NCBI RefSeq assembly: GCF_003945345.1
Contig: NZ_AP019308.1
Coordinates: 2,232,001-2,296,000, forward strand
Length of the DNA stretch: 64,000 nt
Direction: 5' to 3'
DNA from: Paenibacillus baekrokdamisoli
GTDB lineage: Bacteria; Bacillota; Bacilli; Paenibacillales; Paenibacillaceae
The translations under genes and the position numbers were made by a program. Positions 7,744 through 60,459 of the stretch are shown here, piece after piece; within the stretch, counting starts at the first letter, position 1; every line of letters begins with the position of its first letter. The notes beneath the pieces were generated by a model. That model made no database searches. It was not told the DNA's origin and saw only the letters and a list, made by a program, of their open reading frames with translations.

Positions 7744-7749
7744 TTTCCG

Positions 7750-7839
7750 TTCATACTGTTCATACTGTTCATACTGCTCCTACTGTTCATACTGTTCATA
7801 CTGTTCATACTGCTCATACTGCTCCTACTGCTCCTACCT
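7750..7839. repeat. 9-bp minisatellite between stop codon and terminator
   Basis: Nine complete copies plus one degenerate copy of a 9-base unit, TTCATACTG with variants CTCATACTG and CTCCTACTG, read on the plus strand. It begins 5 bases past the stop codon of the 77-residue gene and ends before its terminator. On the minus strand one frame would read Gln-Tyr-Glu repeats, but it is interrupted by TAG and is not in frame with the gene. Confidence 0.9.
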
Positions 7840-9887: not shown

Positions 9888-9914
9888 ATCTGTCTTCCTC
9901 CCCCTAAAATGAAC

Positions 9915-10108
9915 TATATAAGTTGAACTTAAGAAACGAACAATGGGCCGCTGCACAGATGGAATGTTCTTCCGATCGCTGTTGAGCCCGGATTTCTTGT
10001 TTTTTCCCCTGATAAGGGGGAAATCCGGTCTCAAAGGCGAACGCTGACGCTTCTCCAGAATCATCCATCTGCTCCGCTCACTTGTTATATCTCTAGTTCA
10101 ACTTATAT
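9915..10108 (+). repeat. Hairpin element family A, copy A1 (complete)
   Basis: About 194 bases with terminal inverted repeats TATAAGTTGAACT / AGTTCAACTTATA, and an internal long imperfect hairpin: a CAGATGG side pairs with CCATCTG, CCCGGATTTC with GAAATCCGG, and the tip is CCCC-TGATAA-GGGG. It lies upstream of the esterase gene. The flanks TGAAC and GTTCA are themselves inverted repeats. Confidence 0.9.
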
Positions 10109-10226
10109 GGTTCAATCTTATAAAAAAATTAAAAAGACAAAGTAGGGGTTATTCTGAATTTATTCTGAAGAATTCCAGTAAATATCTCATGGCATAGATC
10201 TCGTAAACACTATCCATAAAAAAAAG

Positions 10227-14630: not shown

Positions 14631-14866
14631 ACCGCTTGCTATATAAGTTGAACTTAAGAACGAACAATGAGCCGCTGTGCAGATGGAATGTTCTTCCGAT
14701 CGCTGTTGAGCCCGGATTTCTTATTTTGTCCCCTGATAAGGGGGAAATCCGGTCTCAAAGGCGAACGCTGACGCTTCTCCAGAATCATCCATCTGCTCCG
14801 CTCACTTGTTATATCTCTAGTTCAACTTATATAGTCATCCTAAGATGACAAGCAAGCGGTCTTTTT
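14631..14866 (+). terminator. Terminator split by repeat element A2
   Basis: The left arm ACCGCTTGC (14631-14639) and the right arm GCAAGCGGT plus CTTTTT (14852-14866) are separated by 190 bp of inserted repeat. Removing the insert and one TA restores a hairpin with an inner arm pair GTCATC/GATGAC (14834-14849). Confidence 0.8.
14642..14831 (+). repeat. Hairpin element family A, copy A2 (complete, with TA duplication)
   Basis: 190 bases, ends TATAAGTTGAACT / AGTTCAACTTATA, flanked by TA on both sides (14640-14641, 14832-14833). Same internal hairpin as A1. It sits inside a terminator hairpin, which gives direct evidence of past mobility. Confidence 0.95.
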
Positions 14867-18804: not shown

Positions 18805-19200
18805 AAAAAGTGGCTGTCCCAAAAGGGTACACCCGAGTGAGTCTATCCCATAAAAAGTGCAAAAGAAACCTTCGCTGAAAAAGTGGAAAAGAAGGTTCTT
18901 TTGTGGCTCTAAACCATAATCAGCATGATAAATTCGAAGTATTGTGCAATGAAGCCCGCTGCGCGTACGGATCATTCTTACGATCGCTGTTGTCTCCCTA
19001 TTTCCTGATTCTATCCCTTAGGGGTAGAAATAAGGAGACAAAGGCGAACGCTATCGCTTCTTCAGAACGATTCCGTCCGCTTCGCTTTTGTTAAGTAATG
19101 GCATGCACTTCATTTATTTTGATCCTCTTTTTCAACCTAATATCACGAGAAAAATGGGAGCTTTAATTTCCAAAAATGACTTGTGGGACAGCCCCTTTTT
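18805..19200. repeat. 396-bp element with 21-bp outer inverted repeats
   Basis: The ends (left AAAAAGTGGCTGTCCCAAAA, and on the right the complement of GGGACAGCCCCTTTTT) match at 19 of 21 positions. The left arm begins 11 bases after the acyltransferase stop. It may be the acyltransferase terminator opened by an insertion, or the two ends of an internally deleted IS. Family B copy B1 lies inside. No open frame of note. Confidence 0.6.
18905..19095 (+). repeat. Hairpin element family B, copy B1
   Basis: It starts with GGCTCTAAACCATAATCAG, whose complement ends copy B2. The core hairpin is TTGTCTCC...GGAGACAA plus TATTTC...GAAATA with a CCCTTAGGG tip. Flanking motifs CGATCGCTGTTG and AAAGGCGAACGCT are shared with family A. 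Its own right terminal repeat is missing. Confidence 0.8.
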
Positions 19201-19321: not shown

Positions 19322-19504
19322 TATGAGTTGAACTAGAGATATAACAAGTGAGTGGAGCAGATGGATGATTCTGGAGAAGCGTCAGCGTTCGCCTTTGAGA
19401 CCGGATTTCCCCCTTATCAGGGGACAAAACAAGAAATCCGGGCTCAACAGCGATCGGAAGAACATTCCATCTGTGCAGCGGCTCTTTGTTCGTTTCTTAA
19501 GTTC
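19322..19504 (-). repeat. Hairpin element family A, copy A3 (reverse, one end clipped)
   Basis: Reverse orientation. The left end TATGAGTTGAACT is intact; the right end stops at TTAAGTTC and lacks the last ~8 bases of the terminal repeat. It ends directly before the ribosome binding site of the 89-residue gene. The 19201-19321 stretch beside it shows nothing else. Confidence 0.9.
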
Positions 19505-24458: not shown

Positions 24459-24660
24459 TGATAAATTCGAAGTCTTGTGCGTAGAAGCCCGCTTTGCTGA
24501 CGGATCATTCTTACGATCGCTGTTGTCTCCCTATTTCTTGATTCTATCCCTTAGGGGTAGAAATAAGGGGACAAAGGCGAACGCTATCGCTTCTTCAGAA
24601 CGATTCCATCTGCTTCGCTATTGTTATTCTTGGTGGCTGTACTGATTATGGTTTAGAGCC
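24459..24660 (+). repeat. Hairpin element family B, copy B2
   Basis: Same core as B1 (TTGTCTCC / GGGGACAA, TATTTC / GAAATA, CCCTTAGGG tip). It ends with CTGATTATGGTTTAGAGCC, the complement of the B1 start; its own left terminal repeat is missing. Confidence 0.85.
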
Positions 24661-24712: not shown

Positions 24713-25321
24713 TTAATCATTCTCAGGGATAACAGTTCCGCCCGCAGCATCGATCGTAATTTCATGCTCCGTACCTTTGGCGTCTGTTATTGTAATCGCA
24801 TAAGCGGATTTCCCATTCTCGGATTCAAGTTTTGCTGTTTTCACTGTACCGCCTGGATATTGTTTCTTAGCAAGCTCAATACTCTGTTCCTTTGTAATAG
24901 CAGCAGCGCTTGGAGCAGCGTTAGCGCTTTGGTCGTCAGCAACTTCTTTGTCTGTATCTGCTTGACCTGCTTGACCTGCTTGACCTGCTTGATCATCAGC
25001 AACTTCTTTGTCTGTATTTGCCTTACCTGCTTGGTCGTCAGCAACTTCCTTGTCTGTATCTGCCTTACCTGCTTGATCATCAGCAACTTCTTTGTCTGTA
25101 TTTGCCTGACCCGCTTGATCGTCAGCAACTTCTTTGTCTGTATTTGCTTGACCTGCTTGGTCGTCAGCAACTTCCTTGTCTGTGTCGGGCTGTGTCGTCG
25201 TCGACTGTGTAACCTGCTTAGTCTGGGAATCAGCATTTGCTGATGGAAGCAAAGCAGACCCTGCTATTCCTCCTCCAATAAGAGTTACGGCTAGTGCAGC
25301 GATCATCAGTTTCTTGTTCAT
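24713..25321 (-). CDS. Exported PepSY-domain protein with acidic 14-residue repeats
   Basis: 202 residues. Signal sequence (LMIAALAVTLIGGGIAGSAL, then LPSANA-D; cleavage near 30). Residues 45-134 are six copies of a 14-residue repeat, core (D/N)TDKEVADDQAG, with one extra AGQAGQ insert. Residues 142-202 form a PepSY domain (ITKEQSIELAKKQYPGGTVK; HEITIDAAGGTV). PepSY domains bind or restrain proteases and are common beside two-component genes. The repeats would form a very acidic, flexible arm. GGAGGAAC precedes the ATG. Copy number is likely variable. Confidence 0.85.
   Translation of the reverse strand: MNKKLMIAALAVTLIGGGIAGSALLPSANADSQTKQVTQSTTTQPDTDKEVADDQAGQANTDKEVADDQAGQANTDKEVADDQAGKADTDKEVADDQAGKANTDKEVADDQAGQAGQAGQADTDKEVADDQSANAAPSAAAITKEQSIELAKKQYPGGTVKTAKLESENGKSAYAITITDAKGTEHEITIDAAGGTVIPEND
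24920..25189 (-). repeat. 42-bp coding minisatellite in the PepSY gene
   Basis: Six in-frame copies of a 42-base unit encoding the (D/N)TDKEVADDQAG(Q/K)A repeat, plus an 18-base insert coding AGQAGQ between copies five and six. Copies differ at few, mostly silent or conservative positions. Confidence 0.9.
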
Positions 25322-33302: not shown

Positions 33303-33375
33303 AAGTTGAACTTAAGAAACGAACAATGAGCCGCTGCACAGATGGAATGTTCTTCCGATCGCTGTTGAGCCCGGA
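33303..33375 (+). repeat. Hairpin element family A, copy A4 (left half only)
   Basis: Carries the left terminal repeat AAGTTGAACT and the left arm up to GAGCCCGGA, then breaks off 6 bases before the uppP stop. The right half is missing. Confidence 0.9.
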
Positions 33376-33381
33376 CTTTTG

Positions 33382-34197
33382 TTAAGAAGAGATTAAGTAA
33401 ATGAAGAAGACTGCTGCCAGTACAAAACGGTAATAAGCAAATGGCGCGAGCTTGAAGCGCTCTAGCAGCTTCAGGAATGTAAGCACAGCCAACAAGGCAA
33501 CAACAAAGGCAACTACGAAACCAGTTAAGAAAAACATCGCATCATCTGCGGTTAATAATTTATAACTCTTCAGCAGCTCGTAACCACTCGCAGCGATCAT
33601 CATTGGAATCGCAACAAGAAACGAGAAATTAGTTGCTGCCCTATAGCTAGCTCCGATCAACAAGCCTCCTGCAATCGTCGCTCCTGATCGGGAGAAGCCA
33701 GGCCATAGAGCAAGACATTGAAACAGGCCGATCAAGAACGCTTGCTTGTACGATAGCTCATCGATTCCTTCTGCTTGTACAGTCGCTTGTCGTTTCTGAC
33801 CATACAGCATGAATACCCCCCCAACAACAAGACCAATCAGTACCGTGTAGGGTGAGAATAAATAATTCTTAATGACCGAATGCAAGACTAGCCCAAGCAC
33901 CATTGCAGGAAGACAAGCTAAGATAATGTGAATCAGGTTTAACTTATGACTCGTTGCCGGTGCGCTGGATTCTTTCGAGCTGGCAAGACCAAACAAAGCG
34001 AGAATTCTCCGGTAATAGATAACTGCTACTGCAAGAATGGCACCCAACTGAATAATGATTTCGAAGGTATCTGCCTTCTCACCTGTGAATCCTAACAATT
34101 TGCCGCTCAAAATCAAATGCCCTGTCGATGAAACGGGTAAAAACTCAGTCAACCCTTCTACAATCCCTTGAATAATAGCCGTAATAATTGAATCCAA
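33382..34197 (-). CDS. uppP: Undecaprenyl-diphosphatase UppP (BacA)
   Basis: 271 residues, eight membrane helices. The two signature regions are intact: GIVEGLTEFLPVSSTGHLIL near the N-terminus and WPGFSRSGATI in the middle, containing the catalytic Glu and Ser/Arg residues. The enzyme recycles undecaprenyl pyrophosphate for peptidoglycan synthesis and confers bacitracin resistance. Its 3' end abuts the truncated repeat A4, without visible loss of coding sequence. Confidence 0.95.
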   Translation of the reverse strand: MDSIITAIIQGIVEGLTEFLPVSSTGHLILSGKLLGFTGEKADTFEIIIQLGAILAVAVIYYRRILALFGLASSKESSAPATSHKLNLIHIILACLPAMVLGLVLHSVIKNYLFSPYTVLIGLVVGGVFMLYGQKRQATVQAEGIDELSYKQAFLIGLFQCLALWPGFSRSGATIAGGLLIGASYRAATNFSFLVAIPMMIAASGYELLKSYKLLTADDAMFFLTGFVVAFVVALLAVLTFLKLLERFKLAPFAYYRFVLAAVFFIYLISS

Positions 34198-41457: not shown

Positions 41458-41641
41458 TATAAGTTGAACTAGAGAAATAACAAGTGAGCGGAGCAGATGG
41501 ATGATTCTGGAGAAGCGTCAGCGTTCGCCTTTGAGACCGGATTTCCCCCTTATCAGGGGACAAAATAAGAAATCCGGGCTCAACAGCGATCGGAAGAACA
41601 TTCCATTTGTGCAGCGGCTCAGGTGTTCGTTTCTTAAGTTC
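41458..41641 (-). repeat. Hairpin element family A, copy A5 (reverse, one end clipped)
   Basis: TATAAGTTGAACT at the left end; the right end stops at TTAAGTTC. TA lies on both outer sides (41456-41457, 41642-41643). It is 13 bases past the YhcN/YlaJ stop. Confidence 0.92.
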
Positions 41642-46182: not shown

Positions 46183-46370
46183 ATTGTTGCCTGCCTCCAC
46201 CAGAAATTGAAACGGAATATCCCAACATTTTCATCCATGGGATACCCTTACTATATCCAAACATGCCCATGTTATTCGTTTCAACCTCGTTTTCACTTCT
46301 CATGCATGTACACAAAAAAATAGGGAAATCTTATACAGAAGTCCCATCGACGTAATCACTAATATAGCAG

Positions 46371-46562
46371 TCCGGTACCGCTTGGCAGAGCCACGCAATA
46401 ACTTTGCTTATGCTTTCGATGTGAGTTTTTGCTTTGCGTTACCGTTTGTCCGGTACCGCCTGGCAGAGCCACGCAATAACTTTGCTTATGCTTTCGATGT
46501 GAGTTTTTGCTCTGCGTTACCGTTTGTCCGGTACCGCCTGGCAGAGCCACGCAATAACTTTG
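46371..46562. repeat. 78-bp tandem repeat, 2.5 copies, before the cytochrome c gene
   Basis: 46371-46448 and 46449-46526 are almost identical, and the first 36 bases recur at 46527-46562, ending against the GGAGG of the cytochrome gene. Each unit contains CCGGTACCGCCTGGCAGAGC and GCGTTACCG; the latter pairs with CGGTACCGC across the unit junction. The period equals 26 codons and both strands lack stops through it, but neither frame looks like protein. Confidence 0.93.
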
Positions 46563-46576
46563 AGGAGGTTCCAAAA

Positions 46577-46975
46577 ATGACAAGGAAGCGATTATCCATG
46601 CTTCTGATTGCAGCGGCATTTATTGCTTTAGCTGCGACGGGATGTGGGAACAAAACCAACACGAATACGAATGTGCCTGCACCTGCACCTGCACCTTCTA
46701 CTGGCACAGGAACCACGAACAACACCGGCAATACAACTACAACAACTACTACTGCGACAGCTGAATCCGTCTACAAAGCACAATGTGTCGGCTGTCATGC
46801 GGCAAATCTGAGTGGAGGCGTTGGGCCGAATCTGCAGAAGGTTGGTGGTAAACTTACAACTGCACAAATCACAACGCAGATTCAAAATGGCGGTGGCGGC
46901 ATGCCAGCCTTCAAAGGAACATTGACCGCGGATGAAATTACCAATTTAACAAATTGGCTAGCATCTAAAAAGTAA
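46577..46975 (+). CDS. Lipid-anchored monohaem cytochrome c
   Basis: 132 residues from ATG 46577 with GAGGAGG upstream. Lipoprotein signal (LSMLLIAAAFIALAATGC, Cys 23), a Thr/Pro/Asn linker, and a class I cytochrome c domain: haem site CVGCH, axial Met in GGGGMPAFKG and a C-terminal LTNWLASK helix. Similar in layout to B. subtilis CccB. It sits in the GMC/Tat neighbourhood, so it is a good candidate for the electron acceptor of the dehydrogenase. The 78-bp repeats lead directly into its ribosome binding site. Confidence 0.9.
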   Translation: MTRKRLSMLLIAAAFIALAATGCGNKTNTNTNVPAPAPAPSTGTGTTNNTGNTTTTTTTATAESVYKAQCVGCHAANLSGGVGPNLQKVGGKLTTAQITTQIQNGGGGMPAFKGTLTADEITNLTNWLASKK

Positions 46976-60268: not shown

Positions 60269-60459
60269 TATAAGTTGAACTTAAGAAACGAACAATGAGC
60301 CGCTGCACAGATGGTATGTTCTTCCGATCGCTGTTGAGCCCGGATTTCTTGTTTTGGTCCCTGATAAGGGGGAAATCCGGTCTCAAAGGCGAACGCTAAC
60401 GCTTCTCCAGAATCATCCATCTGCTCCGCTCACTTGTTGTATCTCTAGTTCAACTCATC
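60269..60459 (+). repeat. Hairpin element family A, copy A6 (complete)
   Basis: Left end TATAAGTTGAACT; right end AGTTCAACTCATC, diverged in its last bases; TA on both outer sides (60267-60268, 60460-60461). Inserted in the loop of a small GTCAT/ATGAC palindrome between galU and mqnB. Confidence 0.92.

Follow-up and report, generated by a model that had tools for sequence, protein, structure and literature searches.

Two families of short dispersed repeats, A and B, are in their own genome two unrelated MITEs carrying one RNA fold. The shared element is likely a structured RNA of ~130 nt consisting of an outer stem, an invariant core, a variable side arm and a long stem-loop, although its transcription is inferred. 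The fold, its strand, selection on the fold in place, the sense orientation outside the own genome and the carriage by two MITEs are established. The explanation that we favor, with a probability of about 0.6, is a mobile, cis-acting element of mRNA leaders and intercistronic regions with a role in processing or stability; in the absence of expression data, transcription, factor binding and effect are all inferred.

Copies of the element in the window

An earlier note, drawn from sequence alone, had described eight copies of a hairpin in the window (the whole stretch of DNA that was analysed, 64,000 nucleotides), with two conserved boxes enclosing a stem that differs between families A and B. 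Both boxes and both stems are present as written. CGATCGCTGTTG lies at 18981-18992 and AAAGGCGAACGCT at 19040-19052, the B stem is formed by TTG-TCTCCCTATTTC and GAAATAAGGAGA-CAA (18990-19004 pairing with 19027-19041), and the A stem includes TTGAG/CTCAA. The claim that the terminal repeats of A and B are unrelated also held. The copy number held in part, as the eight copies are seven full ones (five A and two B) and one half A, and the strand had to be corrected, since the wobble pairs belong to the strand opposite to the reported one.

A covariance model (R1) recovered the seven full copies with scores of 111.5 to 116.1 bits, each echoed weakly on the reverse strand at 18 to 23 bits (Table 1). 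R1 was built from 68 sequences, mostly relatives found elsewhere; two of them are the window copies starting at 9946 and 18954.

Several other repeats were observed in the window. An inverted repeat, GTGGCTGTCCCAAAAGGG / GTGGGACAGCCCCTTTTT, surrounds B copy 1 at 18805-18827 and 19183-19200, and this copy looks as if it could possibly have inserted into another small element. Positions 7749-7837 hold a 9-mer tandem repeat (e.g. TGTTCATAC and TGCTCCTAC), positions 46370-46603 two head-to-tail 78-base units followed by a third that diverges part-way, and positions 24917-25191 a repeat of 42-base period that overlaps open reading frames.

Table 1. Coordinates of the element, its parts and related features. 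Plain positions refer to the window.
Feature	Position	Strand	Remarks
RNA element, family B copy 1 (reported copy)	18954..19080	-	R1 116.1 bits, E 4.3e-37; training-set member; parts: P1 (outer stem), P3 (side arm) and P2 (long stem ending in the apical loop)
P2 stem and apical loop, B copy 1	18990..19041	-	From sequence and covariation; loop 19005-19026
P3 mini hairpin, B copy 1	19047..19056	-	RNA GCGATAGCGT, GNNA loop; covariation in alignment columns 108-115, GC and AU types
RNA element, family B copy 2	24487..24613	-	R1 111.5 bits
RNA element, family A copy 1	9946..10073	-	R1 113.1 bits; training-set member
RNA element, family A copy 2	14670..14797	-	R1 111.7 bits
RNA element, family A copy 3	19356..19483	+	R1 112.6 bits; inverted relative to neighbouring B copy 1
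RNA element, family A copy 4	41492..41619	+	R1 112.3 bits
RNA element, family A copy 5	60298..60425	-	R1 112.5 bits
Truncated family A copy	33303..33383	.	One half only; 96% identity to query bases 21-102
Family A MITE around copy 1	9914..10113	.	Ends CTATATAAGTTGAACTT / AGTTCAACTTATATGG; right boundary approximate
Tandem arrays	G000:C1:914726-915322 (L093); L388:2024-2579; L095:601-1300		Cut fifth copy in L095
Loci with long two-hairpin side arm	L066, L071, L112, L114, L119, L121, L134
Viral-contig loci with the element	L347-L367

The complement of the reported strand folds into a three-arm structure, probably an RNA

On the RNA strand the element follows the plan 5'-P1 stem - GRAGAA - small side arm P3 - GUUCGCCUUUG - variable P2 stem/loop - CAACAGCGAUCGKAAGAA - P1', with the consensus 5'-P1-GRAGAAGC(GNNA)GCGUUCGCCUUUG-P2-loop-CAACAGCGAUCGKAAGAA-P1'-3' and the core sequence CAACAGCGAUCG. 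The P3 side arm is a short hairpin with a GNNA-type loop. A number of copies carry a longer arm, and a long two-hairpin replacement (AAGCUUUC..GAAAGCU and GCUUCGGAAGC) was found at the same site of the fold. Outside P1, the sequences AGYGGAG and CGNARCGG recur on the 5' and 3' sides, respectively.

The covariation check proposed in the earlier note was run, and its claim that pairing is kept while the sequence changes was supported. Among 97 diverse copies, 526 double-change cells were counted; shuffling gave 163.7 ± 12.3, and none of 500 shuffles attained the observed count. The covariation score was 0.375, a value likewise attained by 0 of 500 shuffles (0.138), and sliding the partners raised it to no more than 0.176. 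Changes on both sides were seen in 26 of 36 pairs, a number attained by 3 of 500 shuffles; the covarying pairs comprise 12 of 12 in the outer stem, 12 of 20 in the long stem and 2 of 2 in the side hairpin. A second alignment of 64 sequences gave support by covariation to 21 of 30 pairs. Related sequences may beat shuffles without any structure, a caveat to which the slid control is a partial answer. The core segments UCGC/GCGA and UUG/CAA showed no variation among the 97 copies and are hence uninformative on pairing; these copies were picked via the exact core pattern, so that the selection itself fixes the core.

We then determined which strand folds from the non-canonical cells of the stems. 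On the reported strand, A.C outnumbered G.T by 134 to 28 in 210 distinct copies (the distinct inner sequences among 263, after removal of one rejected match, L180), by 107 to 28 when counted per distinct stem, and by 22 to 12 per cluster of <72% identity. Transitions in DNA would yield A.C and G.T equally; the excess of A.C therefore indicates the complementary strand, where these cells read as G.U. The separate alignment of 64 sequences gave, on the RNA strand, 73 G.U against 22 A.C over 22 pair columns (selected out of 30, invariant pairs being omitted), with 14 columns leaning one way and 3 the other (p 7e-8 for the G.U excess on the assumption of independent cells, which holds only in part). 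Alifold energies also favor the RNA strand (-62.2 vs -60.1). The folded molecule is thus the strand opposite to the reported one, and the plus-strand reading was dropped on the A.C and G.T counts.

The element is abundant in its own genome and widespread in its bacterial family

A search for the gapped core GATCGCTGTTG-N32..62-AAAGGCGA returned 121 exact matches in the 7.26-Mb genome (60 and 61 by strand), compared to none in the whole genome for the reversed-pattern control; the number of matches is therefore far from chance. Family B is the large family in this genome, family A occupies 18 places with at least 95% identity over at least 126 bases, and a third stem type, TTGCAGCC..GATTC / GAATC..GGCTGCAA, is also present. 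Within the bacterial family to which this genome belongs, 245 genomes were sampled; the exact core is present in 157 of them, representing 11 of 19 genera, with up to 157 copies per genome, while the reversed control gave 0 in every one of the 245 rows.

A scan of named genomes gave loci from at least Paenibacillus, Fontibacillus, Saccharibacillus and Gorillibacterium, along with one match from Desulfobacterales. The latter (L180), whose letters we take to be mutL coding sequence, was taken as a chance match. With the covariance model, at least 40 of 398 genomes of the class matched at E 1e-4, of which 37 belong to the own family. These are lower bounds, as eight candidates were scored per genome under strict filters. 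One genome from a second family of the order gave 12 matches at E 0.01, and for ten of these E was at most 6e-12. Genomes G402 and G306, from two other families of Bacilli, matched only weakly and were not counted as members; judged by eye, their folds have in common only the CUUUG-stem-CAAC core, or less. The palindromes at four loci of G402 (L262, L264, L266 and L268) are very long and have a core of the form CUUUUG-long stem-CAAC.

Further observations concern the arrangement of the copies. In different species, three or four copies follow one another in tandem, at a period of 177 to 216 bases, and some copies form inverted neighbouring pairs. Diverged copies of the B core were seen on three Paenibacillus plasmid records (NZ_CP054613, NZ_CP013204 and NZ_CP054609), none covering 80% of the query.

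Two unrelated MITEs carry the same fold

Families A and B are both short, bear terminal inverted repeats, are associated with a target duplication and exist as many similar copies, thereby meeting the criteria for MITEs. Family A ends in CTATATAAGTTGAACTT / AGTTCAACTTATATAG, and TA was present at both ends in 10 of the 12 copies in which both ends were found (the total number scanned is not given); in copy 1 of the window, TA is absent at the right end. In family B the ends are GGCTC..GAGCC and the duplication spans 8 bp; it is perfect in 4 of 14 copies, with a mean identity of 6.2 of 8 vs 3.6 in shuffles; these 14 are the copies, out of 42, with both ends recognised. The ends of A resemble those of IS630-type elements and the ends of B those of ISL3-type elements.

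No autonomous partner of A was found in the one IS-sized interval fetched, of 1363 bp in genome G232, which holds a gene between two element copies that is an AA_kinase by Pfam and that we take to be argB-like. Another interval searched, of 800 bp, contains unidentified open frames. As for B, the single ISL3 transposase of the own genome is broken and without matching ends. A-type ends enclose other stem types in another genus; they are absent from the whole of genome G032, which has 19 copies of the element, and most other copies inspected lack them.

The fold is maintained in place across species

Several species share the element before the same gene, including mnmE, def, dxr (assigned by Pfam), argB-like, alaS-like and ylbF genes, among others. 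The ylbF leaders were studied using 30 loci; these were fetched from a set of 40 genomes, all belonging to one genus and all having a match. In one clade, all 22 assessable loci carry the element in sense orientation at nearly the same distance. These belong to the 23 loci with at least 93% protein identity, the remaining one (L383) not being assessable because its contig ends. No element match at E 1e-8 was found at the 7 loci with 61-74% protein identity. One species has three tandem copies before ylbF.

Among the 24 copies of the ylbF set, double-change cells numbered 37 compared to 11.1 ± 3.5 in shuffles (0 of 500), and both-side changes occurred in 10 pairs compared to 5.2 ± 1.5 (2 of 500 shuffles); the number of pair types was not raised in this set (389 of 500 shuffles as high). 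Here the core is nearly invariant as well, in copies that were found with the model. Two species (L378 and L386) have a different outer stem that by eye still pairs, with one mismatch in L386, and some orthologous sets contain copies with broken pairs. Because covariation holds among orthologous ylbF copies, the fold is under selection after its arrival at the site. The earlier note had stated that neutral decay of one ancestor would refute its claim; this refutation failed, as the covariation in place at ylbF speaks against it.

Outside its own genome the element lies in sense with the surrounding genes

Outside the own genome, 74 copies are codirectional with both flanking genes, 23 are antisense, 22 lie between convergent genes and 18 between divergent genes, the contrast of 74 to 23 corresponding to a p value of 1e-7 if copies were independent. 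Orientation is even in the own genome, which is rich in A and B copies (18 codirectional vs 19 antisense). The contrast from which these counts come excludes 30 edge, 31 overlapping, 47 convergent and 21 divergent copies. A second sample of 60 loci, picked by us from the list of the model before the genes were viewed and coming from 12 genomes (11 of one contig, one of two), gave 45 codirectional vs 3 antisense copies, or 42 to 3 with one hit per locus; it comprised 69 hits, with 13 overlapping, 5 divergent, 1 convergent and 2 edge hits outside the contrast. In both samples, genes are the longest open frames of at least 100 residues rather than annotated genes, and orthologous loci as well as some places fetched twice are included, hence the counts are not independent. 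The median gap to the next start codon is 72 to 84 nt.

Gene direction and replication direction are confounded, since 54 of 62 copies are also aligned with the presumed replication fork (assuming an origin at base 1 and a terminus at mid-length). Eight copies lie between genes that oppose the fork; 6 have the direction of the genes (although 3 of the 6 are close to the assumed terminus) and 2 that of the fork. These copies lean toward transcription without deciding it.

At locus L148, the element is directly preceded on its 5' side by a T-box, which scores 61.7 bits (E 5.1e-13) where Rfam's threshold is 93, and is followed on its 3' side by an alaS-like gene. Because it sits between the two, the element is very likely inside a leader at this locus. 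The same arrangement was recognised by eye in the orthologous locus L215. Downstream genes share no function (their 89 proteins contain 123 Pfam families, of which none occurs in more than 4), which argues against a riboswitch of one pathway and for a general effect on mRNA.

Furthermore, the core was found in 21 viral contigs, several with a length of about 26 kb. In 15 of the 21, the element is located 3' of, and in sense with, a common open frame (MKAVPKVN..); the one sequence of it that was tested matched nothing in Pfam. Holin (PF05105) and endolysin (PF01832, PF01183) genes adjoin the element in L347, L356 and L361, the contigs that were tested for them.

A cis-acting element of mRNA is the most likely explanation

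We propose that the element, situated in leaders or between cistrons, in sense with the surrounding genes and commonly tens of bases before the next start codon, would be transcribed as part of the mRNA. Its invariant core may then be bound by a host factor, such as an RNase, the ribosome or RNA polymerase, and the bound factor would set processing, stability or read-through of the message; these steps are inferred, and both the partner and the direction of the effect remain unidentified. Being self-contained, the element may have been picked up and scattered by MITEs, some of the landed copies being kept. A bolder version would see in it a plug-in RNA, i.e. a self-contained cis-acting domain spread over many genera, travelling in unrelated MITEs and recruited beside housekeeping and phage lysis genes. 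We find this version a little easier to doubt than to accept; if true, unrelated genes would be wired to one RNA-binding factor or catalytic activity.

Should the element act on mRNA, these bacteria would possess an unseen layer of control, and transposons would disperse a regulatory RNA of which selection then keeps copies. In any case, this is a putative RNA present in most of the genomes sampled from a large bacterial family, sometimes exceeding 100 copies per genome, without a match in the standard RNA library. As its strand, fold and invariant bases are known, its partner can be fished for.

Alternative explanations

Processive antitermination signals, such as put RNA and EAR, are one alternative: the element would pass RNA polymerase through later terminators. 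The sense orientation, the leader and intercistronic sites of unrelated genes and, in viral contigs, the proximity to holin and endolysin genes are all in its favor. We consider it unlikely, as an effect on termination has not been shown.

Dispersed small RNAs acting in trans, each copy with its own promoter, would account for the compact fold with its invariant core, the tandem arrays and the copies between divergent and convergent genes. However, the sense orientation with flanking genes and the site behind a T-box in an alaS-like leader speak against this alternative, which is also unlikely. The earlier note had offered a small RNA among its readings; an RNA is indeed favored, with the cis-acting form preferred over a separate small RNA without the matter being settled.

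That note had also suggested REP-like substrates and a check for the associated transposase. Under this explanation, the hairpin would act as single-stranded DNA on the lagging-strand template during transposition of the REP/RAYT or IS200/IS605 kind. Alignment of 54 of 62 copies with the presumed fork, tolerance of G.T wobbles in single-stranded DNA too and the inverted neighbouring pairs are compatible with it. However, no Y1_Tnp match exists in the own genome despite its 121 copies, and 13 of 20 picked element-bearing genomes (11 to 157 copies) also lack one at E 0.001, the other 7 having a match, as do 5 of 14 control genomes. REP/RAYT or IS200/IS605 substrates are not known to have inverted ends or a target duplication, whereas A and B both carry inverted ends and duplications (TA or 8 bp). 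Moreover, the fold is kept in place between species and covaries, and within the own genome neither orientation predominates. We therefore regard this explanation as very unlikely.

A self-cleaving ribozyme would fit the small three-arm fold, the invariant internal core, the unrelated gene contexts and the many copies. No Rfam family was matched at threshold, there is no evidence of cleavage, and we give this possibility very little weight. A riboswitch or another ligand-responsive regulator, supported by the leader position, the sense orientation and the tandem copies, is similarly improbable, as the downstream genes have no common pathway. Finally, passive MITE cargo whose stems merely record a palindromic ancestor in neutral decay would agree with the MITE-like nature of A and B in the own genome, but it is all but excluded by covariation beyond the shuffled and slid controls, also in place, and by a core that is near-invariant across genera.

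Relation to known systems

Searches of the window and of 14 loci against Rfam 15 returned no match at threshold; among the 12 poor hits below threshold, 9 were miRNA families, and a known Rfam family was rejected. We found no description of the element in the open-licence literature searched. In a transcriptome study of Paenibacillus riograndensis, 11 elements were identified by comparing 209 long leaders against Rfam; as the element is missing from Rfam, it could not surface in that comparison.

Like REP/REPIN sequences with RAYT, the element forms high-copy intergenic hairpins, although it is longer, has inverted ends and TA or 8-bp duplications, and resides in a genome without a Y1_Tnp match. 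T-box and riboswitch leaders are likewise structured leader RNAs with an invariant core and variable stems, whereas the element is mobile, has no common downstream function and goes unmatched in Rfam at threshold. BOX, NEMIS/Correia and ERIC, from other hosts, are also small and dispersed, and the RNA hairpins to which they give rise in UTRs can change how mRNA is processed. The nearest described things are the interspersed repeats bcr1-bcr18 of the Bacillus cereus group, some of which are MITE-like (bcr1-3) and some of which have a conserved RNA structure (bcr10, bcr18). For 40 to 51% of the bcr copies, transcripts were detected that include them, for instance as UTRs or intercistronic segments (PMC3446304). 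The bcr repeats and the element are both intergenic repeats of a Bacillales group. In contrast to the bcr repeats, which have other hosts, the element described here is one fold in two unrelated MITEs, kept at orthologous places.
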